Positions 22,991 through 32,014 of a DNA stretch of 39,546 nt are shown in pieces (the first letter of the stretch is position 1; the number at the start of each line of letters is the position of its first letter). The DNA lies in assembly GCA_947166945.1 (NCBI GenBank), contig CAMVGH010000013.1, forward strand, positions 1 through 39,546, in the 5' to 3' direction. Origin of the DNA: an uncultured Clostridia bacterium (GTDB lineage: Bacteria; Bacillota; Clostridia; Oscillospirales; Ruminococcaceae). The translations under genes were made by a program, and so were the position numbers. The notes beneath the pieces were generated by a model. That model saw nothing but the letters and a program-made list of their open reading frames with translations. It made no database searches and had not been told where the DNA came from.

Positions 22991-24358
22991 TTATTCTTTC
23001 AGTACCGATTCTGCCGCTTTGAACATCTGAGTGAGATTTGAAGCGCCGATAACACGGATACCGGAACAATCGCGCTTATCGAGAGACGACAGAACTGATT
23101 TCGGGACGATACAGGTTTTGAAACCGAGCCGTGCGCATTCACGAACTCGCTCCGACGCATGGGCGACCGCACGGAGTTCCCCTCCGAGACCGATCTCACC
23201 GAATACGGCAAGATCCTCCGGCAGCACAAGGTCACACAGACCCGAGAACAGCGACAGCGCTACCGCGGCGTCGGCAGCAGGCTCCGTAAGGCGCATGCCG
23301 CCTGTTATATTCACATATACGTCAAACTGTCCGAACAGATAACCTGTGCGTTTTTCAAGCACCGCAAGTATCAGGCAGAGCCGGTTGTAGTCGAACCCGT
23401 CGGCAGAACGGCGCGGATTGCCGAAGCCGGTCTTTGTCACCAGCGACTGCACCTCTGACAGCAGCGGTCGGGAGCCTTCGACAGTGCAGAGCACACTTAT
23501 CCCGCTGATACCGGACGGTCTGCCGGCAAGCAGCATTTCCGATGGATTTTCCACTTCGTCGAGCCCCTTATCCGTCATTCTGAAAACGCCCAGCTCGTTC
23601 GTGGAGCCGAATCGGTTCTTAACGGCACGGAGTATGCGGTAGGAGAGCTGTTTGTCACCCTCGAACGTAAGCACGGTATCAACGATATGTTCGAGGACTT
23701 TCGGTCCTGCAATGCCGCCGTCCTTATTGACATGACCGACTATGATGATCGGTATGCCGTAGCGTTTTGCCGTCTGCATGAACAGAGTCGTGCATTCCCG
23801 CACCTGCGTGATGCTGCCCTGCGCGGAGGAGATCTCGGTTATCTGCATCGTCTGGATAGAGTCGATGATGACCACGTCCGGCTTTTCTTCAACTATTGCG
23901 GCATTGACCGCTTCACAGTCGTTGTCCGACAAAAGATAAAGATTGTCTCCGCTCACGTTGAGTCTGTCGGCGCGCAGTTTTATCTGTCGTTCGCTTTCCT
24001 CACCGGAAACGTACAGGACTTTGCCTGTTTTGTCGAGATAACTGCATATCTGGAGAAGAAGCGTTGATTTTCCTATTCCCGGGTCTCCGCTGAGCAATAC
24101 CAGCGAGCCCGCCACAAGTCCTCCGCCGAGTACTCTGTCAAGTTCCGACGATCCTGTCTTATAGCGCAGATCGTCTTCCACGGATATCTCGCCGAGGGTT
24201 TTCGGCTTCAGAGTTCTGCCGCTTTTCACCGAGGCGCGCGGCAGCTCCACCTGCTCTGATACCGTGTTCCATTCTCCGCATTCCGTGCATCGTCCTACCC
24301 ACTTTGGATAGATATGTCCGCACTCACTGCATATATAAGAAACTTTCTGTTTCGCCAA
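22991..24358 (-). CDS. radA: DNA repair protein RadA/Sms
   Basis: This 455-residue protein is a branch-migration helicase for recombinational repair and transformation. It has an N-terminal zinc finger (C10, C13, C24, C27), a RecA-like core with Walker A GDPGIGKST, the RadA-specific KNRFGSTNELGVF motif, and a C-terminal Lon-protease-like domain. The start is a TTG at 24358 with AGGAG about 10 bp upstream, inside the end of the amidase gene (35-bp overlap). radA is therefore the downstream member of the cwlD-like transcription unit, and the intervening element separates it from that unit's promoter. Confidence 0.96.
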   Translation of the reverse strand: MAKQKVSYICSECGHIYPKWVGRCTECGEWNTVSEQVELPRASVKSGRTLKPKTLGEISVEDDLRYKTGSSELDRVLGGGLVAGSLVLLSGDPGIGKSTLLLQICSYLDKTGKVLYVSGEESERQIKLRADRLNVSGDNLYLLSDNDCEAVNAAIVEEKPDVVIIDSIQTMQITEISSAQGSITQVRECTTLFMQTAKRYGIPIIIVGHVNKDGGIAGPKVLEHIVDTVLTFEGDKQLSYRILRAVKNRFGSTNELGVFRMTDKGLDEVENPSEMLLAGRPSGISGISVLCTVEGSRPLLSEVQSLVTKTGFGNPRRSADGFDYNRLCLILAVLEKRTGYLFGQFDVYVNITGGMRLTEPAADAAVALSLFSGLCDLVLPEDLAVFGEIGLGGELRAVAHASERVRECARLGFKTCIVPKSVLSSLDKRDCSGIRVIGASNLTQMFKAAESVLKE

Positions 24359-24974
24359 TTACTTCCGTCTCCTTGTTTTTTACTTCCTCCGCCGAATACT
24401 GTTCAAGCCCTCTGAATATAGTGAAAGCCACTTTCTTGCGGTATTCGGGGTCGCTGAGATTTGCCGCGTCGTCCGGATTTGAAAGAAATCCGCACTCTAT
24501 GAGCAATGCAGGCTGCTCGGTATTCCTGAAAAGGTAAAGTCCGTTGTCGATCAGCTTCACTTCACGGTCATTCCCGGGCTGGAGCTGTGCAAACAACCCC
24601 TGCATTATTCTTGCAAGCTTATAATTATCGCTGTTGTTGGTTGTGTAGAACATCTGCGCCCCGAAATACTCAGGTTCGGTAAACAGGTTCTGATGCACCG
24701 AAAGGAATATGCTGTCGGGGTATTTCTTCACTATCTCAAGACGGTTCTCCATATCCGAGATCTTCTGGTTGCGTATCCCCTCAACGCCGCTGTCATGTAT
24801 CGATATGTCGTCCTCGCGGGTATATACTACCTTGTACCCGTTCAGCGTGAGCAGTGTGCCGAGGTCTTTCACGATATCAAGATTGATGTCCTTTTCATAC
24901 GCTCCGTTCACCGCCACGCAGCCGGAGTCCATCCCACCGTGGCGTGCGTCCCTCCTGACAACGGCTTTTTTCAT
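24324..24974 (-). CDS. cwlD: CwlD-like N-acetylmuramoyl-L-alanine amidase, C-terminal part of an interrupted gene
   Basis: The frame carries most of an Amidase_3 domain: the zinc His in RHGGMDSG, the Glu in GAYEKDINLDI, the second His in LSVHQN, and the catalytic ALLIECGFLSNP. The segments QKISDMENRLEIV and IDNGLYLFRNT match CwlD, the sporulation amidase that makes muramic delta-lactam in spore cortex. The first 13 residues (MKKAVVRRDARHG) are an artefact of the junction: the ATG and about ten codons come from inserted DNA. The native signal segment and VIVLDAGHG lie 6.8 kb away at 31763-31937, in the same orientation and compatible frame. As it stands the product would lack a signal peptide and stay in the cytoplasm. 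Confidence 0.9.
   Translation of the reverse strand: MKKAVVRRDARHGGMDSGCVAVNGAYEKDINLDIVKDLGTLLTLNGYKVVYTREDDISIHDSGVEGIRNQKISDMENRLEIVKKYPDSIFLSVHQNLFTEPEYFGAQMFYTTNNSDNYKLARIMQGLFAQLQPGNDREVKLIDNGLYLFRNTEQPALLIECGFLSNPDDAANLSDPEYRKKVAFTIFRGLEQYSAEEVKNKETEVIGETESFLYMQ
24935..24966. other. Attachment site, left end of the element
   Basis: The 7-bp core CACCGTG (24935-24941, plus strand; CACGGTG in the amidase sense) is repeated directly at 31763-31769. Element-side arm: 24944-24966, ending CCTGACAACGGCT, which recurs inverted at 31743-31765 with two mismatches over 23 bp. Left of the core lies amidase coding sequence. Confidence 0.85.
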
Positions 24975-25049
24975 TTTCCGTATCTGTCGCAGTACGTAGC
25001 TGAATTTACAGCATGAAGATGATACACTCCGTGATCAATAATAACTCTG

Positions 25050-25637
25050 TCAGTCGTCTCTGTCGCTCCTGCCCGAGATCTTATCGGAGATCTTGTCCTT
25101 GAAACCCTGCTTTACACCGTCACTGAAAATCTCTTTTACCGCATCCGGGATAAGTCTGTTCTTGACCCCGTACAGCGATATCTTACCGTCCGGGCTGAAC
25201 ACGATATCGGTTATATCGTATGTAGAAGGCGCGTTGTATATATGATCGAGGCTTTCTCCGTCCTCGGTGAACATGGATATATCCGCCTCGAAAGCATACC
25301 GTTCCTCTATAAGAAACTGTTTCACGTCGGTCATTTTTTCGCCTCGCAGTGCATCGGTGAGCAATGAGGTGTAGTACCGTGCCTGTTCTTCCGGGCTTTG
25401 TGTGGTCTCTGCGGTGGTTGTGACTGTTGTTGTCGCGGCTGCTGTTGTCGTGACGGCAGTCGTTGTTGTGGTATGTTCTGTTGCGGCGGCAGTGACAGGA
25501 GTTGTCTCTGCCTCAGATAACACTGCCGCTGTCGTGACCGCTGAGGTTCCCGCAGGCTTGGAATCATTCGCTGCCCCACACGACGCGAGCGTTAATATCG
25601 CTGCCATAAGAAAAGCGCTATATTCTTTGCGTCTCAT
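25050..25637 (-). CDS. Lipoprotein with Thr-rich linker
   Basis: This 195-residue protein has a lipoprotein signal with lipobox LASC near residues 17-20, a roughly 45-residue Thr/Ala-rich linker (repeats of TTT separated by AV or AAA) and a small C-terminal domain (about 85-195) of unknown family, ending in a charged tail. GGAGG precedes the ATG. It follows the prephenate dehydratase-like lipoprotein by 45 bp and is probably co-transcribed. Such linkers are common in surface proteins of ruminococci. It lies inside the element. Confidence 0.7.
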   Translation of the reverse strand: MRRKEYSAFLMAAILTLASCGAANDSKPAGTSAVTTAAVLSEAETTPVTAAATEHTTTTTAVTTTAAATTTVTTTAETTQSPEEQARYYTSLLTDALRGEKMTDVKQFLIEERYAFEADISMFTEDGESLDHIYNAPSTYDITDIVFSPDGKISLYGVKNRLIPDAVKEIFSDGVKQGFKDKISDKISGRSDRDD

Positions 25638-25682
25638 TGTATGCCTCCAGATATTTTATAATATTATTTTTGCAGATCTTTT

Positions 25683-26603
25683 TTATTTTGAAACGACCGA
25701 AAAGCTTCCCAAGAACCTTATTTCACGGTCTGCGCAGATGTTTTCTATCTGCTTTTCGGTGATGCCGCCGGAAGATTCCACCTCTATGATATAGTTATAT
25801 TTCCCGAGTTTGCTGCCTTCGGGGCGGTCATGTATGGTGACCGGCTCAACACCCGTATTATGTATATCAACGATGACATCATCTATCTTATTTGCTTCAC
25901 AGGTGACCGCGAATACTGCATTTGTCCCGCCGGTCATGCGCTGCTTTGAGAGTACATAAAACCTCGTCTTGTTCGCGTCGGTTATCTGAACATTCTCGGC
26001 AAGAACTTCCAGCCCATACAGTTCAGCAGCTCCGGGGGCGGCAACCGCTGCTATCGACTTATCCTGCTGTTCAGCGACATAAGCCGCTGCGGCGGCAGTG
26101 CTGCTCTTTTCTTCGGTGACCGCGTCGGGCATATTTTCGCTGCGCCACTGTTCAGACTGCTTTATTCCCTGCGCGTGAGAGCATACGGTCTTGATATCCG
26201 AGACGGCTGCTCCGGGAATACCCATGAGAGTCTGGCTTATAGGGATTATAACCTCCCCCGTGACATACACATCATCACAGGCAAGAAGTGCGTCAACATA
26301 GTTTGTCACCGCTCCTCCGAGAGTGTTTTCCTGCGGTATCACCGCATAGTCGGCAGCTCCCGAGACAGCGTCCTGTATCGCTTCATCTACGGTGGCCTTA
26401 GGGATAAAGCTGCCCTTGGACTCAAAGAAGTACTTCGCAGCCTCTTCGGTGTATGTTCCCTCGGGACCGAGATAGCTCACTGACGCGTTTTCAACGAACG
26501 ATACCGCTGCGGGAGGCAGGGTTGAAGCAGTGCTGCTTGCACAGCCGGAGAGCATAAGTACGGCGGCTGTAAATGAAACTGCGGTGATTTTTATATTTTT
26601 CAT
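25683..26603 (-). CDS. Secreted lipoprotein with prephenate dehydratase and ACT-like domains
   Basis: After a lipoprotein signal (MKNIKITAVSFTAAVLMLSGC), the protein (306 aa) carries a prephenate dehydratase-type domain: YLGPEGTYTEEAA, IPQENTLGGAV and KTRFYVLSK, the last being the catalytic TRF motif. An ACT-like regulatory region (about 225-300, GTNAVFAVTCEANK and FLGSF) follows. The start at 26603 is set by GGAG lying upstream within a longer open frame. Cytoplasmic PheA makes phenylpyruvate for phenylalanine synthesis; here the same fold is predicted outside the cell. It may act as a solute-binding or sensing protein, or as an exported enzyme. Confidence 0.78.
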   Translation of the reverse strand: MKNIKITAVSFTAAVLMLSGCASSTASTLPPAAVSFVENASVSYLGPEGTYTEEAAKYFFESKGSFIPKATVDEAIQDAVSGAADYAVIPQENTLGGAVTNYVDALLACDDVYVTGEVIIPISQTLMGIPGAAVSDIKTVCSHAQGIKQSEQWRSENMPDAVTEEKSSTAAAAAYVAEQQDKSIAAVAAPGAAELYGLEVLAENVQITDANKTRFYVLSKQRMTGGTNAVFAVTCEANKIDDVIVDIHNTGVEPVTIHDRPEGSKLGKYNYIIEVESSGGITEKQIENICADREIRFLGSFSVVSK

Positions 26604-26653
26604 AAACATTATCTCCATTTTCTGATTTTTGAGTATTAATAAACAGCTTTATT

Positions 26654-26682
26654 ATTGTATCATAAATTGAATGAATAGTCAA
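26654..26682 (-). promoter_or_regulatory. Promoter of the two lipoprotein genes
   Basis: On the minus strand TTGACT (26677-26682) and TACAAT (26654-26659) are separated by 17 bp, 50 bp before the start. Confidence 0.6.
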
Positions 26683-26705
26683 TCAGTATTCTCTGCCGTA
26701 TAACA

Positions 26706-26742
26706 AAAAAGATCCCCGTCCGGAGGATTTCCGGACGGGGGA
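26706..26742 (-). terminator. Terminator of the MerR-family gene
   Basis: A long GC-rich stem (arms CCCCGTCCGG and CCGGACGGGG) with a 6-nt loop is followed on the minus strand by TTTTTT. Confidence 0.85.
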
Positions 26743-26744
26743 TA

Positions 26745-27482
26745 TCATCTGCAATAAACTTCTATTGCGCGGTTCACGAACTGTGCGGTTCCCTCGCCGC
26801 CTGCATTGTCTATATTTTCGGTGAACTCACCGCCGGCAGCGTACATCTTCCCGAGACCGAGAAGAATATCATTCGTACAGTTGTAGAAATTCTGGCAGAA
26901 AAAGTCCTGTAAGCGCTTCACCTGCGCCTGTACCCTGCTGTCGGCAGGGTCGAGACCGCGCATTTCTCCGAACTGCGCAAACAGCTCCATTGTCCTGCCC
27001 GCAAGTTGTTCTTTCTCCTCCGCGGTGCGCAGGCTGTCTCTTCTTTCCGACTCATTGTATTCGGCGGTGTTTCCCCACTGCTCCTTTGCGCGTTTTGCGT
27101 ATTCGTCGAGCTTGGTGGTATTGAATGCCGAAAAATCATTTTTACTCATAGTTCTTTTACCTCCTGATCCTTTTATTTCAACAGCGAGGGTAATAAGAGC
27201 GTCAAGATGCTCTCTCCGCAGTTTCAGCAGCTCTATCTGCTGGTCAATAGCTTTCCGGCGGTCGAAACCGGGGTCGCCGATAATGGTCTTTATATCTTTC
27301 AGCGGAAATTCAAGCTCACGGAACAGCATTATCTGCTGCAATTTCTCCAGCGCCGTATCGTCATACAGCCTGTACCCCGCTCCGGTATGCCCGCTCGGGC
27401 TTAGCAGTCCAATCCTGTCATAGTACTGTAATGTGCGCACACTCAGTCCTGTAAGCCTGCTGACCTCATTTACCGTCATCAT
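26745..27482 (-). CDS. MerR-family regulator with TipAS domain
   Basis: This 245-residue protein has an N-terminal MerR winged helix (about 1-70, starting MTVNEVSRLTGLSVRTLQYYDRIG), a dimerisation coiled coil (about 75-110) and a C-terminal TipAS domain (about 130-245, with LFAQFGEMRGLDPADSRVQAQVKRLQDF). TipAS domains bind thiopeptides and other multidrug ligands and turn on MerR-type promoters. Its own promoter has the 19-bp spacer and dyad typical of MerR control, so it probably regulates itself. No efflux or resistance gene is adjacent. It lies within the element, next to the recombinase. Confidence 0.9.
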   Translation of the reverse strand: MMTVNEVSRLTGLSVRTLQYYDRIGLLSPSGHTGAGYRLYDDTALEKLQQIMLFRELEFPLKDIKTIIGDPGFDRRKAIDQQIELLKLRREHLDALITLAVEIKGSGGKRTMSKNDFSAFNTTKLDEYAKRAKEQWGNTAEYNESERRDSLRTAEEKEQLAGRTMELFAQFGEMRGLDPADSRVQAQVKRLQDFFCQNFYNCTNDILLGLGKMYAAGGEFTENIDNAGGEGTAQFVNRAIEVYCR

Positions 27483-27513
27483 TCCGACCGCCTCCTTTTT
27501 CCTCGCTGATATT

Positions 27514-27544
27514 AATATACACTATTACGTTACGTCATAGTCAA
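27514..27544 (-). promoter_or_regulatory. MerR-type promoter with 19-bp spacer and dyad
   Basis: On the minus strand TTGACT (27539-27544) and TATATT (27514-27519) are separated by 19 bp. The spacer holds a palindrome (27522-27540) with 9-bp arms around one central base and one mismatch. Overlong spacers with a central dyad are the mark of MerR-controlled promoters. Confidence 0.8.
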
Positions 27545-27634
27545 GAGGGAAAATGTGATTTTGTAGGAATGAACAAATTTCAGTGATAAAATTATGCAAT
27601 ATACTGTAAAATATAATTATACCGTCATATTACA

Positions 27635-29212
27635 TCAGAAATTCCATTCTATACGTATCTCCCGTGTTCCGTCCCGCTCTTTCGCGCCGATATGGATACT
27701 GCTTATAAACTCGTTTACCGTAATGTAATCGAGCTTATCTATCCTACAGAAACGAGAGATCTTATCTTCGGCATTCTCCGGACTGCAGCGATCTTTTTTT
27801 ATTGCTTCAATGCGTGACAGCAGCTTCTCTTTTTCAAGATCAATTTTTTCAATATCGGCTCTGAACTTCGCCGTGTGGAGTTCATATTCCTCCTGACTGA
27901 TCCTGCCTTCGAGCCTGTCCTCATACGCAGCGGAAATAAATGTCCGTTTCTTCCCGATCTCAGCGCCAAGCCTGCCGAGAGCATTTTCCGCGGCTCTCAG
28001 CCGTCCGTCAGCCCCGTCACTCACAGCAAGGGTGTCCGGTTCACAGTATTCAGCGATATGGTCATTTACAGCGGCAATGATCTGTGCTTCAAGCTCCATG
28101 CCGCTTACGGCTGCACTGTTAGTGCAGTTGTCTGTTCCTTTGCGGTAAGCCGCACAGCGCAGATTGTAATACCTGTCGGTATGATCTTTATTGTAATATG
28201 TATTACGACTCATAGGTCTGCCGCAAACTCCGCATCTCACCTTGCCGGACAATGCGGGGATCTCCCCGGTTACACTGCTGCCGCGGTGTGTCTTGCTTTC
28301 AAGCATTTTCCGCACAGCGTCCCACATATCCCGCTCCACTATAGCCTCATGTGCGTTCTGAGTCCTTATCCATTCGTCCTCCGGCACTTTCAGCCTGTGG
28401 TGGTTCTTATAGCTTACACAGTGAGTTCGTCCCTGGGCGAGAGTTCCTGTATATACCTCGCTGCGAAGTATGGAAGCAACTGTCGATAAAGTCCATAGTC
28501 CGCTGTCGGGACTGCTGTCCGCGTTCCTGTTCACATACCTGCTGTCGGTCATGTGTTTATACTCGGTCGGGCTTGGTATGCCCGCGCTGTTCAGTTCCCC
28601 GACTATCTTCTTATACCCTTGTCCGGACAGATACCGCAGGTATATTTCTTTCACCACGGGCGCCGTCTCGCTGTCGATTATCAGATGATGTCTGTCATCG
28701 GGATCTATACGATAGCCGTATGGCGCGAATGACCCGGTGAACTGCCCGTTTTCACGCTTATGCCGCAGTATCCGCCGGACATTAAGAGAAGTGTCCTCGC
28801 AGTACCACTCGTTATTCAGACCGTTTATCTGGCGGGTACGCTTATTGTATGCGTCATCGGTGTCCGCATGATCCACTATGCTGACAAAACGCACTCCCCA
28901 CTCTATGAATCTGTTGTGTATGTACTCCTCGATAACACCGAGATCCCGGGAAAAACGTGACTGTGACTTGCACAGCACAACATTCACCGCGCCTTTTTCA
29001 CAGTCACCCAGCATTCTCCGGAATTCCGGGCGCTCAAAGTCGGTCCCGCTGTAATTCTCGTCACAGTACTCATCGTATATGTTCCAGCCCCGCCCAAGAC
29101 AGTATTCCCGCAGCAGAGAACGCTGGTTCTGTATGCTCTCGCTCTCGTCTGTCCGGAAACGCTTGTTCCTGTCCTCGTCGGACAGCCTTACATATATAGC
29201 GGCATTTATCAT
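27635..29212 (-). CDS. Large serine recombinase
   Basis: This 525-residue site-specific recombinase has an N-terminal resolvase domain with catalytic Ser11 in YVRLS and SQSRFSRD, a recombinase domain (about 170-290, with GSFAPYGYRI), a zinc ribbon (CGVCGRP and CAAYRKGTDNC, about 335-375) and a C-terminal coiled coil (about 405-480). The family includes SpoIVCA and phage integrases that insert and excise DNA between short att cores. The start at 29212 overlaps the stop of the 38-residue gene in ATGA. It is the evident enzyme for the flanking att sites in cwlD. Confidence 0.95.
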   Translation of the reverse strand: MINAAIYVRLSDEDRNKRFRTDESESIQNQRSLLREYCLGRGWNIYDEYCDENYSGTDFERPEFRRMLGDCEKGAVNVVLCKSQSRFSRDLGVIEEYIHNRFIEWGVRFVSIVDHADTDDAYNKRTRQINGLNNEWYCEDTSLNVRRILRHKRENGQFTGSFAPYGYRIDPDDRHHLIIDSETAPVVKEIYLRYLSGQGYKKIVGELNSAGIPSPTEYKHMTDSRYVNRNADSSPDSGLWTLSTVASILRSEVYTGTLAQGRTHCVSYKNHHRLKVPEDEWIRTQNAHEAIVERDMWDAVRKMLESKTHRGSSVTGEIPALSGKVRCGVCGRPMSRNTYYNKDHTDRYYNLRCAAYRKGTDNCTNSAAVSGMELEAQIIAAVNDHIAEYCEPDTLAVSDGADGRLRAAENALGRLGAEIGKKRTFISAAYEDRLEGRISQEEYELHTAKFRADIEKIDLEKEKLLSRIEAIKKDRCSPENAEDKISRFCRIDKLDYITVNEFISSIHIGAKERDGTREIRIEWNF

Positions 29213-29325
29213 TTCGTCCCCGCTTTCATGTCTATACAACGCTGGACCGCCTGTGTCACTGCCTTGCGGCGGTCTTTTTTATCCGATGACCTGTAGATAT
29301 TCACTACCTTATACTTTACTTTCAT
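29209..29325 (-). CDS. 38-residue basic protein coupled to the recombinase
   Basis: This short frame has an excellent ribosome site (GGAGGG, 7 bp before the ATG) and ends overlapping the recombinase start by 4 bp. The peptide begins MKVKYKVVNIYRSSD, then KKDRRKAVTQAVQRCIDMK; it is basic and probably helical in its second half. Position and charge suggest a partner of the recombinase such as a directionality factor, but there is no homology visible to me. It could also serve only to couple translation. Confidence 0.6.
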   Translation of the reverse strand: MKVKYKVVNIYRSSDKKDRRKAVTQAVQRCIDMKAGTK

Positions 29326-29352
29326 AATGCTGCCCTCCGAATGCTTTTTTCA

Positions 29353-29381
29353 AATATATGTGAAATAATTTCTTCTTATGC
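29353..29381 (-). promoter_or_regulatory. Sigma-E-like promoter of the recombinase unit
   Basis: On the minus strand GCATAAG (29375-29381) and CATATATT (29353-29360) are separated by 14 bp. This resembles the B. subtilis mother-cell sigma-E consensus (KMATATT, 14-15 bp, CATACAHT): the -35 matches in five of seven positions, the -10 in seven of eight. It ends 27 bp before the 38-residue frame. No good sigma-A promoter was seen there. The 341-bp gap 29326-29666 otherwise holds only the divergent chemoreceptor promoter and AT-rich DNA. Confidence 0.5.
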
Positions 29382-29576
29382 GGCAAAACAGATGACTCTC
29401 CGAATAAAAAAGCAAAATTGCTCAGATTCTTCCTGTTTTGAACCGATGAGAGGCTTTCCCTATAAGTTGGCTTCAGGGTATTCAAAAAATAAAGTATAAA
29501 AGCGTATATTTTACACAAATATATATACATTGATTTGTTAATTATGCAGAAATATTGATAAAATTGTCAAATATAC

Positions 29577-29605
29577 TTGAAATAGTTCACATAATGATAT
29601 ACAAT
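29577..29605 (+). promoter_or_regulatory. Promoter of the chemoreceptor gene
   Basis: TTGAAA (29577-29582) and TACAAT (29600-29605) are separated by 17 bp. No sigma-28 promoter, common for chemotaxis genes, was found. Confidence 0.55.
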
Positions 29606-29666
29606 AAACATACCGTATTATTGTCTGAAAAGATCTATTTATCAAATTCATTCAGGAGGAAAAAAT

Positions 29667-31613
29667 ATGGCATGGACTAAAAGACTTGGGACAAATATAC
29701 TGTTCATAACAGGAGCAGGTATAGTTCTGATGGTGGCAGTGCTTCTGTCCGTAACGCTGCTTACTATGAGAAATTACAACGACAGCATAATGCTCCAGAG
29801 AGCAGTCGTAGGTATGCAGGTACTTGAGGATAAGGTAGCCGGTGAGCTGAACGACCTCGAAGACGCATATTCAATGTTCAAGGAAGACGGAGATTTCCGT
29901 GATGCCGCTGTCGCTGCTGATGCAGAAGTTCTGAAAGCTTATATGCAGAAACAGCTGCCGGGCGAAGATTTCTATATAATCGTCGGTGACAAGACCGGCG
30001 CAATTACATACAAGAGCGACAATTACCCGCTGAAATCCTTTGATTACGCTCCTGTATCAAACGGCAGGACCATAAAGGGTATCGCAAGGTGCGACGAAGA
30101 GCTTGTCGCAATGTATGCTTCTTATGTGAAGGATCAGGACGGACAGGAATTCATGCTCTGCCTCGGCTTCACAATGGAAGCTACCGACTGGCTCGATGAA
30201 GTTATGAAAACCTCCAACTGTGATGCTACGGTATGGAACTGGAATATAAGATATGCGACCACTCTTAAAAGAGACAACGGTGAGCGCGCAACAGGTACAG
30301 ACCTCAACGAAGACGTTGCGGAAGCCGTACTTGACAAGAACGGCAAATATGAAGGTCAGCACGATGTTGTTGACAGACATTACTATGTATCCTACCAGAC
30401 AATGACCGACTATGACGGCAAGATCGTCGGAGCATACTGGGCAGGTGCAGACGCACGTGACGCAGATGCCGAGTTTGGTATGGTAACATTCGTGGCTATC
30501 GCGATAGGCGTTGTATGTACACTGATACTCGGCATAATCATCTTCATCTTCTGCCAGAAGAGAGTCTCTCAGCCTCTTTCGTATGCTGAAGAATACGCGA
30601 AGGAAATGCTCGCAGGTCAGCTCGACACAACAAATGTTACATTCAAGTTTGCAGATGATGAAGTCGGCGCGTTCGTTGAGACGCTGCGCAGCGCAAAGCA
30701 TGGTATGAACGACGTTGTCGGTGATTCCTCAAGAATACTTGCTGCAATGGCAAGCGGCGACTTTACCGAAACCCCGAGTGTAAGATATCCCGGTGTATTT
30801 GAGGATATCGAAAAGAACATACTCAAGATCGAGGACGATCTCGGACTTACACTCAGCAATATGAACACATCTTCCGACGAAGTACTTACAGGCTCCAATC
30901 AGATGGCTGAAGGCTCTCAGTCCCTCGCGGACGGTACTACCCGTCAGGCTTCGGCTATCGAGGAGATATCCGCTACTATCGCCGAGGTGTCCACACAGAT
31001 AGCAAATACCGCTCAGAATGCTGCTCAGGCAGGAAATCTCTCCAAGCAGACACAGGACAGAGTCAACGAGCAGGATCAGGAGATCCAGAACATGGTGCAG
31101 GCGATGAACGAGATAAGCTCCACATCGCAGGAGATCGAAAAGATCATCAAGACTATCGAAGATATCGCTTTCCAGACAAACATACTTGCGCTGAATGCCG
31201 CTGTTGAGGCAGCCCGTGCAGGTGATGCCGGCAAGGGCTTCGCGGTTGTTGCTGACGAAGTACGCAACCTTGCAAGCAAGTCCGCCGAAGCAGCAAGCTC
31301 CACCACATCGCTTATCACAGCTTCTATCGAGGCTGTCGGAAAAGGCTCTAAGCTCGCGCTTTCCACAGCTGAATCCATGAAGGAAGTCAAGTCGATGTCT
31401 GCCGAAACAGCAGAGCTGATAACTCAGATCGCTTCCGCAAGCGCGGAACAGAACGAGTCCATAAAGCAGATAACTTCCGGTGTGGAGCAGATCTCGCAGG
31501 TTATCCAGACAAACTCCGCTACCGCCGAAGAGACAGCGGCTTCCTGCGAAGAGCTTTCCGGACAGTCCAAGATGCTCAAGGATCAGGTCGCAAGGTTCAA
31601 GATCAATCAGTGA
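29667..31613 (+). CDS. Methyl-accepting chemotaxis protein
   Basis: This 648-residue receptor has a membrane segment at about 12-33, an extracytoplasmic Cache-like sensor (about 35-270), a second segment (about 272-298), HAMP-like regions and a long cytoplasmic coiled coil. The hairpin tip reads [23 protein letters not shown], the conserved CheA/CheW contact. There is no C-terminal CheR-binding pentapeptide. GGAGG precedes the ATG. It would feed the flagellar motor encoded 12 kb away, but it lies on the intervening element, so it would be lost with excision. Confidence 0.95.
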
Positions 31614-31658
31614 TACGATCCGGTATGCTGTTTGCTGAACGCTGCTTTCGGTAAATTA

Positions 31659-31937
31659 TCAGATGAAAAATACCCGCCCCATTACGGAGCGGGTATTTTT
31701 ATGCTCTTCAGCCTGAATTTTCTGTAATTCACCGAAACAATGAGCCGTTGTCAGGAAGAACGCACCGTGCCCGGCGTCCAGTACTATCACAGGTCTGTCC
31801 TCACCTGCCGCCGCTGTCTGCGTGGCAGCGGAACCTCCGGACGCGTGGACCGCCGCGGCAAGCGCCGCCACTGTCACACAACTGAAAAGTGTGATGATGA
31901 ATGGGATCTTGTTTTTGAGTATTTTTATTCCTGCCAT
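31659..31937 (-). CDS. cwlD: CwlD-like amidase, N-terminal part of an interrupted gene
   Basis: The first 58 codons encode a hydrophobic export or anchor segment (about residues 11-30), a short Ala/Gly-rich linker and VIVLDAGHG, the start of an Amidase_3 domain with its first zinc His. From the att core (31763-31769) onward the frame runs 34 codons into element DNA (AFFLTTAHCFGELQ...) and stops, so this product has no catalytic domain. The rest of the amidase is at 24324-24941. AAAGGA stands about 10 bp before the ATG, and a sigma-E-like promoter lies just upstream. Confidence 0.88.
   Translation of the reverse strand: MAGIKILKNKIPFIITLFSCVTVAALAAAVHASGGSAATQTAAAGEDRPVIVLDAGHGAFFLTTAHCFGELQKIQAEEHKNTRSVMGRVFFI
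31666..31700. terminator. Bidirectional terminator at the right end of the element
   Basis: A perfect 12-bp stem, AAAAATACCCGC and GCGGGTATTTTT, has an 11-nt loop and T-runs on both strands. It ends the chemoreceptor transcript and would also stop transcription entering the element from the amidase promoter. Confidence 0.9.
31743..31769. other. Attachment site, right end of the element
   Basis: The core CACCGTG is at 31763-31769, in direct repeat with 24935-24941. The element-side arm at 31743-31765 begins AGCCGTTGTCAGGA and is the inverted partner of the left arm (21 of 23 bp). Right of the core the amidase N-terminal coding sequence begins. Confidence 0.85.
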
Positions 31938-31968
31938 TGATAAGCTGTCCTTTCATACTTTTTTGTAA

Positions 31969-31997
31969 AGGATATGAAACAAGCTGTCGGAATATGA
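31969..31997 (-). promoter_or_regulatory. Sigma-E-like promoter of the cwlD-like gene
   Basis: On the minus strand TCATATT (31991-31997), a full match to the sigma-E -35 consensus KMATATT, is followed after 14 bp by CATATCCT (31969-31976), six of eight positions of CATACAHT. The start codon at 31937 is about 31 bp farther on, with AAAGGA in between. B. subtilis cwlD is expressed in the sporangium from a sigma-E promoter. Confidence 0.6.
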
Positions 31998-32014
31998 CCG
32001 GAATACAGGAAAAA

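Follow-up and report, generated by a model that had tools for sequence, protein, structure and literature searches.

The stretch of DNA analysed here, referred to below as the window, comprises 39,546 nucleotides from an uncultured bacterium of the Ruminococcaceae (contig CAMVGH010000013.1, assembly GCA_947166945.1), and carries a cwlD-type amidase gene split into two halves by an element that encodes a large serine recombinase (LSR). Both halves lie on the minus strand: the N-terminal half closes with the residues VIVLDAGHG at the core CACGGTG (31769-31763), and the C-terminal half starts again at a second CACGGTG (24941-24935) and ends at 24324. A first-pass annotation made from the sequence had placed the break at these two cores, and the positions proved exact to the base, with 6828 bp from the CA of one copy to the CA of the other. 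The split gene, the element and its attachment (att) sites are arranged as follows.

31659..31937, minus strand: 5' half of cwlD, reaching from the membrane anchor as far as DAGHG (host DNA at 31937-31763; element DNA beyond)
24324..24974, minus strand: 3' half of cwlD (host part 24941-24324; the initial codons, MKKAVVRRDAR, are element DNA)
24942..31769, no strand assigned: the element between the crossover CA dinucleotides, 6828 bp
31743..31769, minus strand: attL, core CACGGTG 31763-31769 plus P' arm 31743-31765
24935..24966, minus strand: attR, P arm 24944-24966 plus core CACGGTG 24935-24941
27635..29212, minus strand: LSR with Resolvase, Recombinase and Zn-ribbon domains (likely start ATG 29212; listed open reading frame to 29239)

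When the two cwlD flanks are joined at the core, a frame of 261 residues containing VLDAGHGGMDSG stays open throughout, as the annotation had anticipated, and the joined protein shares 76-80% identity over residues 1-261 with the intact genes of three congeneric genomes (G060, G011 and G089). The 3' half matches Amidase_3 with 134 bits and spore_cwlD with 183.6 bits, the 5' half matches a profile that includes its own sequence at E 7.4e-30, and the nearest solved structure to the joined protein is 7rag, a germination-specific amidase chain (E 6e-37). A second complete cwlD, which the annotation had named as a finding that would speak against its proposal, was not found in the source genome (95.5% complete), where the single other Amidase_3 match falls within a frame of 1119 residues on contig 72. 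The enzyme presumably acts in sporulation, a role that we take from knowledge of the family.

The zinc ligands of CwlD are present in the joined protein when it is aligned to 7rag (the residue numbering was mapped by us), and the spacing of His49 and Glu65 is consistent with that alignment. His49 is a zinc ligand of C. difficile CwlD (PMC8496864), and the His of DAGHGG, whose codon is split by the element, appears from the alignment to correspond to it, as the first zinc ligand. The landing codon would thus be that of a zinc ligand, and any change to it would cost the host the enzyme. Directly before cwlD, both here (window 31935-32000) and in G060, stands a motif TCATATC..AAAAA..TATGAAAGG, by eye a possible promoter or hairpin.

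Attachment sites and element contents

The ends of the element are attP half-sites: 24944-24966 and 31743-31765 are inverted repeats of 23 nt, 91% complementary to each other. In the circular form they would make up a palindromic attP with a 6-nt spacer centred on CA, in which 18 of the 22 arm positions pair, a value equalled by 0 of 2000 shuffles. The CA at the centre of symmetry forms codon positions 1 and 2 of the His in DAGHGG. The same symmetry test was applied to 13 elements rebuilt from both ends, with 26 candidate centre positions each; the ends of those in G002, G034 and G023, which lie on separate contigs, were paired assuming one element per genome. The His-codon CA was the single best centre in 12 of the 13 (10 of 11 in a smaller first set). 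These arrangements indicate that crossover most likely takes place at the CA of the core, the symmetry centre of attP, a small correction to the annotation, which had joined the halves at the core.

On its own, the 7-bp core is weak evidence: the window contains 10 copies of the core GCCACGGTG with at most one mismatch, against 6.5 expected. The 23-nt inverted repeat and the relatives described below carry the case beyond the 7-bp core and far beyond chance. A chance match of the core was considered and is ruled out by the combination of core and arms and by recurrence in other genomes.

As the first-pass annotation had stated, a large serine recombinase with an open frame is present in the element; its start needed correcting, and is probably ATG 29212, behind a frame of 38 residues. 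The remaining contents of the element, and the host gene beyond it, are listed here.

29209..29325, minus strand: open reading frame of 38 residues with a 4-nt overlap with the LSR start, candidate accessory or directionality factor
29541..29570, minus strand: sigma-A-like promoter TTGACA-18-CATAAT, 5' of the small frame and the LSR (consensus match only)
29667..31613, plus strand: methyl-accepting chemotaxis protein, cargo (domain search)
26745..27482, minus strand: MerR-TipAS regulator, cargo (domain search)
25683..26618, minus strand: lipoprotein-like protein with a prephenate dehydratase domain, cargo (lipoprotein reading by eye)
25050..25637, minus strand: Thr-rich lipoprotein-like protein without a family match, cargo (by eye)
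22991..24358, minus strand: radA/sms, the host gene 3' of cwlD, which adjoins cwlD in most relatives read

The nearest solved match to the LSR is YokA, the SPbeta resolvase homolog (E 5e-13), and its C-terminus scores 22.7 bits on DUF4368, where the cut-off is 25. Distant matches to it occur in phage records (748) and plasmid records (329), in every case below 60% identity. Viral contigs contain four relatives, two of them near full length at 37-38%. Pfam searches found neither a relaxase nor phage structural genes in the window element. A phage origin was set aside, Pfam having shown no phage genes in the element, and the matches to phage records are taken as general LSR kinship. Consensus matches to the sigma-A-like promoter number 9 in the same 500-bp stretch against 2.4 expected, and no sporulation promoter was recognised before the LSR, a statement made without running a sporulation-promoter model. 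The frame of 38 residues matches no Pfam family and gives only a weak match to PHROG 21823, of unknown function (E 0.076); by eye, similar small frames precede the LSR in most of 26 loci inspected, although frames of such sizes also arise by chance. G034, G002, G060, G077 and G076 have homologs of the MerR-TipAS regulator, with 74-78% identity, within their element sites or next to them.

The recombinase family and its targets

Named genomes were scanned with an alignment of five LSRs, and the best 80 of 476 relatives were kept. An amidase part bearing HGG.D.G was present no more than 1.5 kb downstream, on the LSR strand, in 31 of the 80 loci, as opposed to 0 of 80 at three control positions of equal size. 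One of the 31, L201, was taken out because its gene is intact, and seven were added: L136 and L139, where the codon was read, L151, and L127, L132, L138 and L142, which have 5' halves on the opposite strand. The same codon of an Amidase_3 gene is thus the insertion point in 37 of the 80 LSR loci. Kept among the 37 are L144 and L203, with short 3' parts of 85 and 79 residues, and L147 and L151, which are cut by contig ends; L132, with an open frame of 21 residues, is the weakest. L126, L150 and L129 are, judging by length and position, the same contigs as G002, G034 and G003 and so are not independent of the genus search described below, and no N-terminal half was found for L187 in the 40 kb upstream. 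The amidase targets occur in records labelled Clostridia and Bacilli, and some of those labelled Bacilli are amidases with LysM repeats, two of whose 5' halves (L145 and L166) look free of a signal peptide. The LysM-type targets may resemble the mother-cell amidase CwlC.

In 16 of the 80 loci (L175, L176, L185, L186, L189, L190, L192, L193 and L195-L202) the neighbouring piece belongs to cotJC, the gene for a spore-coat Mn catalase. The hosts include Sporomusa ovata DSM 2662, Sporofaciens musculi and Diplocloster modestus. Both pieces tested were confirmed by Pfam Mn_catalase, one as a 5' part (model 1-150) and the other as a 3' part (145-196); in L175 and L186 the piece lies 4-9 kb away from the LSR. 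In the LSR tree, the cotJC loci come together as a single clade (100/100), and the other half consists mostly of the amidase group; L127, L132, L138, L142 and L151 are drawn there as unknown, the labels predating their recognition. Nested in the amidase clade is a group found by eye beside ABC-type ATPase-like fragments (L180, L183, L184, L188, L194 and L204), perhaps a shift of target; the fragment of L188 has no Pfam match. Look-alike small frames stand before the LSR in the amidase, cotJC and ABC groups alike, again by eye. One group of recombinases is found at a single catalytic codon shared by cwlD-type and other related amidase genes, and a related clade at cotJC.

Among ten pairs of loci compared, the identities of recombinase and target disagree: L128 and L130 have 3' halves that are 90% identical and LSRs that are 58% identical, L130 and L131 share 83% between LSRs and 72% between genes, and L140 and L141 share 98% between LSRs and 30% between targets. 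Because of this disagreement, the insertions are considered recurrent and horizontal. An old, vertically inherited switch is ruled out as a general rule, since neighbours have unrelated LSRs at the same codon. Such independent insertions are in agreement with an ordinary mobile element, for which cwlD would be a conserved landing site and excision rare or random, the carriers making germination-defective spores or living on an excised minority; we put this explanation somewhat below an even chance. It is hard, however, to attribute two kinds of sporulation gene as the main targets to site conservation alone, an argument that is in turn weakened by the third, ABC ATPase-like target group.

Interrupted and intact cwlD in the genus

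Within the genus, 71 genomes were searched, 58 of which match the 3' part of cwlD at E < 1e-60; the junction region was read in 21 of the 58, and the remainder were judged by frame length. In six of the 58 (G000, G002, G034, G088, G003 and G023) the 3' part begins at the same codon behind foreign DNA. Other relatives have an uninterrupted cwlD with its halves contiguous, a comparison that the annotation had proposed. Orphan 5' halves with a junction are present in G002, G034 and G023, and also in G071, G073 and G062, where the 3' ortholog was not found; for G003 and G088, the search for a 5' half gave nothing beyond a weak match. The elements at the cwlD site of G002 and G034 contain MobA-type relaxases and count as mobilizable, and that of G034, whose ends lie on two contigs, contains Cas3, Cas5c, Cas8c and Cas7 genes. 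These relaxases and defence genes add to the case for an ordinary mobile element. The cwlD-site elements with a relaxase and type I-C-like cas genes also bear an apparent CRISPR array, seen by eye, and the relaxase is truncated in G060; the cas-bearing stretches are L054 220-6875 and L101 38-2440 in G034, and L099 4165-12376 in G060, where the cas genes were named by eye.

Three genomes (G060, G077 and G027, the last at a contig edge) combine an orphan 5' half with a gene whose frame continues across the His codon. In G060 the two lie 15 kb apart on one contig, an extra copy of the 5' part (218 bp, 96.8%) stands before the 3' part with remains of the element in between, and the 15-kb stretch has no LSR match. 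This scar-like state, an orphan 5' half with attL beside an intact cwlD having a near-copy of the 5' part, is seen at 96.8% in G060 (L099 2985-3201 and 18597-18814) and at 89% in G077 (L104 7148-7384 and L105 3749-3983).

The orphan N-terminal halves retained as scars in G060 and G077 indicate that insertions can become permanent, and raise the question of whether the gene is dead, with the element stuck and cwlD a pseudogene in a lineage that is losing spore formation. The two short amidase parts among the 37 (L144 and L203) are in line with such decay. By contrast, the window has open frames for the LSR and for each half of cwlD, the gene of G060 is whole again where the LSR is gone from the locus, and the source genome has Spo0A and SpoIVA. 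The 3' halves of the genus are likewise not accelerated: in 12 genomes, four of them interrupted, mean pairwise identity is 0.813 for pairs with one interrupted member (32 pairs), 0.817 with two (6 pairs) and 0.796 where both are intact (28 pairs). We therefore regard a dead gene as unlikely. Non-accelerated 3' halves would fit a gene still in use or a recent insertion. Pseudogene decay was looked for in these 3'-half identities and left no sign in the genus, in a test that is coarse, with dS (synonymous divergence) near saturation and insertions that may be young.

Spo0A was detected in 59 of the 71 genomes and SpoIVA in 58; among the 41 good genomes, the numbers are 41 and 39. With both present by sequence in the source genome, the host is, by its gene content, a spore-former. 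From the 80 LSR loci, 20 host genomes were tested, 19 with amidase targets and one with cotJC: Spo0A exceeded the cut-off in 20 of 20 and SpoIVA in 18 of 20, while G110 has a weak Spo0A match (E 3.6e-19) and no SpoIVA match. All tested hosts are carriers, and since the set lacks matched element-free hosts, the association has no independent control.

Possible excision and known intervening elements

In the proposed mechanism, the LSR acted on a circular form of the element and recombined its palindromic attP with an attB site in cwlD, so that the membrane anchor came to lie on a separate 5' half of the gene, cut off from the 3' half. Recombination of attL with attR by the same LSR, perhaps with a directionality factor, for which the frame of 38 residues before the LSR is a candidate helper, would excise the 6828-bp element and restore cwlD exactly. 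We infer that the LSR also excises the element and that cells in sporulation would use the rebuilt cwlD to make cortex. The split, the attachment half-sites, the open LSR frame, the restoration of the gene on paper, the same event in many genomes and the unaccelerated 3' halves of the genus can be read directly from the sequences, and argue for a real, recurrent family of cwlD-intervening elements that is precisely reversible, a reading to which we assign a probability of about 0.8. This family may work like gin or skin.

Several observations weigh against this reading. The assembly of the source genome contains only attL and attR, no attB or attP junction having been found in it, and neither junction was matched in viral contigs. 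Against the NCBIfam CwlD model TIGR02883, whose equivalog cut-off is 221.55 bits, the joined protein reaches only 194.5. Two uninterrupted orthologs of the genus score still lower, at 190.8 and 186.3 bits, so that the shortfall is not caused by the join; the gene, cwlD-like as the annotation had it, is accordingly called CwlD-type and not certified CwlD. The LSR of the window lies 2.7 kb from attR, compared with 22-1227 bp in 30 loci measured, and its promoter appears vegetative, being sigma-A-like. The rebuilt attP of Marseille-P2935 is without symmetry (8 of 22 pairs, equalled by 414 of 2000 shuffles), and the closest LSR, L125 (78%), has no amidase piece within its 15.8 kb and was counted as unassigned. 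Finally, the source genome is a draft in 244 pieces, 6.28% of it contamination, which speaks for the rival view that the split is an assembly chimera. However, both junctions bear mutually matching attP arms, and the same junction codon recurs in independent assemblies, including those of two cultured strains (L134 and L135), which leaves a chimera with hardly any credence.

If the elements do leave, the next question is when. Excision may be timed, the element leaving the mother-cell chromosome in sporulation as do skin, SPbeta and gin; CwlD would be made only there and the loss would not be inherited, a possibility to which we give slightly less than an even chance. The target is a cortex gene and a related LSR clade sits at the coat gene cotJC, the tested hosts have Spo0A and SpoIVA at the frequencies given above, and the unaccelerated 3' halves of the genus point the same way. 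On the other side stand the unrecognised sporulation promoter, a small frame without a named family in place of an identified directionality factor, the host set composed of carriers, and the weak Spo0A and missing SpoIVA matches of G110. The apparently vegetative promoter favours an ordinary mobile element, but does not exclude timed excision, because the LSR of the C. difficile skin element is likewise driven by a sigma-A promoter and is timed by a directionality factor under sigma-E and SpoIIID (PMC5025042). Random excision is a real rival to timed excision, since the excised form of yin, the element in yabG, is present at all time points (PMC10747680). Depending on the answer, the significance differs. 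If excision is tied to sporulation, the rebuilding of genes in the mother cell would be a general strategy, and one that decides whether the spores here can germinate; if it is not, the elements would plainly exemplify the loss of germination through mobile DNA. In both cases, a split cwlD can be mistaken for a broken gene.

Sporulation genes known to be split by excisable elements are sigK, spsM, gerE, spoVFB and yabG. Like these cases, the cwlD element splits a putative sporulation gene, bears its own recombinase and predicted att sites, gives back the frame on joining and resides in an apparent spore-former. The nearest known case is gin, a 28.6-kb element in the mother-cell gene gerE of Bacillus cereus ATCC10987, for which excision in sporulation and a helper, GirX, are demonstrated (PMC5595907). 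Both are non-phage elements with a serine recombinase that split a sporulation gene, have a short core at both ends and give back the gene on joining, and gin shares restriction genes as cargo with some relatives of the cwlD element. It differs in its target, its larger size and its three recombinases, and for the cwlD element excision is predicted from sequence. The skin element in sigK of C. difficile and B. subtilis is also an LSR element in a mother-cell sporulation gene, and the C. difficile form resembles ours in the apparent sigma-A promoter of its LSR, whereas skin is prophage-like, targets sigK and has a known directionality factor. SPbeta in spsM of B. subtilis has an LSR and a spore gene rebuilt by precise excision, in contrast to its nature as an active prophage with another target and recombinase (PMC4191935). 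Similarly, yin is recombinase-bearing and lies inside a sporulation gene of a clostridium, while being prophage-like and excised at all times.

The TndX/TnpX-type LSRs of clostridial transposons share with the LSR of the window the domain order and an element without phage genes; plasmid matches to our LSR are annotated tndX and the TnpX structure was also matched, whereas identity is 29%. A large survey of LSR targets describes the TndX-like clade as multi-targeting, in contrast to the LSRs here, which keep to one codon in a single gene family; the survey names other genes as favoured, and the words "amidase" and "cwlD" are absent from its main text (PMC10083194). The annotation's statement that no element in cwlD had been described agrees with the openly licensed literature, in which we found none by title, and no report of cotJC with a serine recombinase, although absence there is not proof. 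Even if its suggestion of a new developmental rearrangement system is correct, the novelty would lie in the target and the element family; the kind of system is already known from skin, SPbeta, gin, vfbin and yin. A wider reading, which we advance tentatively and with the odds somewhat against it, is that an entire clade of LSR cassettes lands in genes that no cell but the doomed mother cell needs (cwlD, CwlC-like amidases and cotJC) and is excised there in sporulation, so that many Firmicutes would rebuild cortex and coat genes anew in every sporulating cell.

The elements with both ends on one contig measure 3.7-11.8 kb, and the small ones in cultured strains make the question of excision directly testable. 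The minimal elements of these strains are 3871 bp long in Marasmitruncus massiliensis Marseille-P3646 (L134 7690-11620) and 3698 bp in Ruminococcaceae Marseille-P2935 (L135 7878-11600), and their cargo is housekeeping-like by eye, consisting of ThiF- and TtcA-like proteins or of a cation antiporter.

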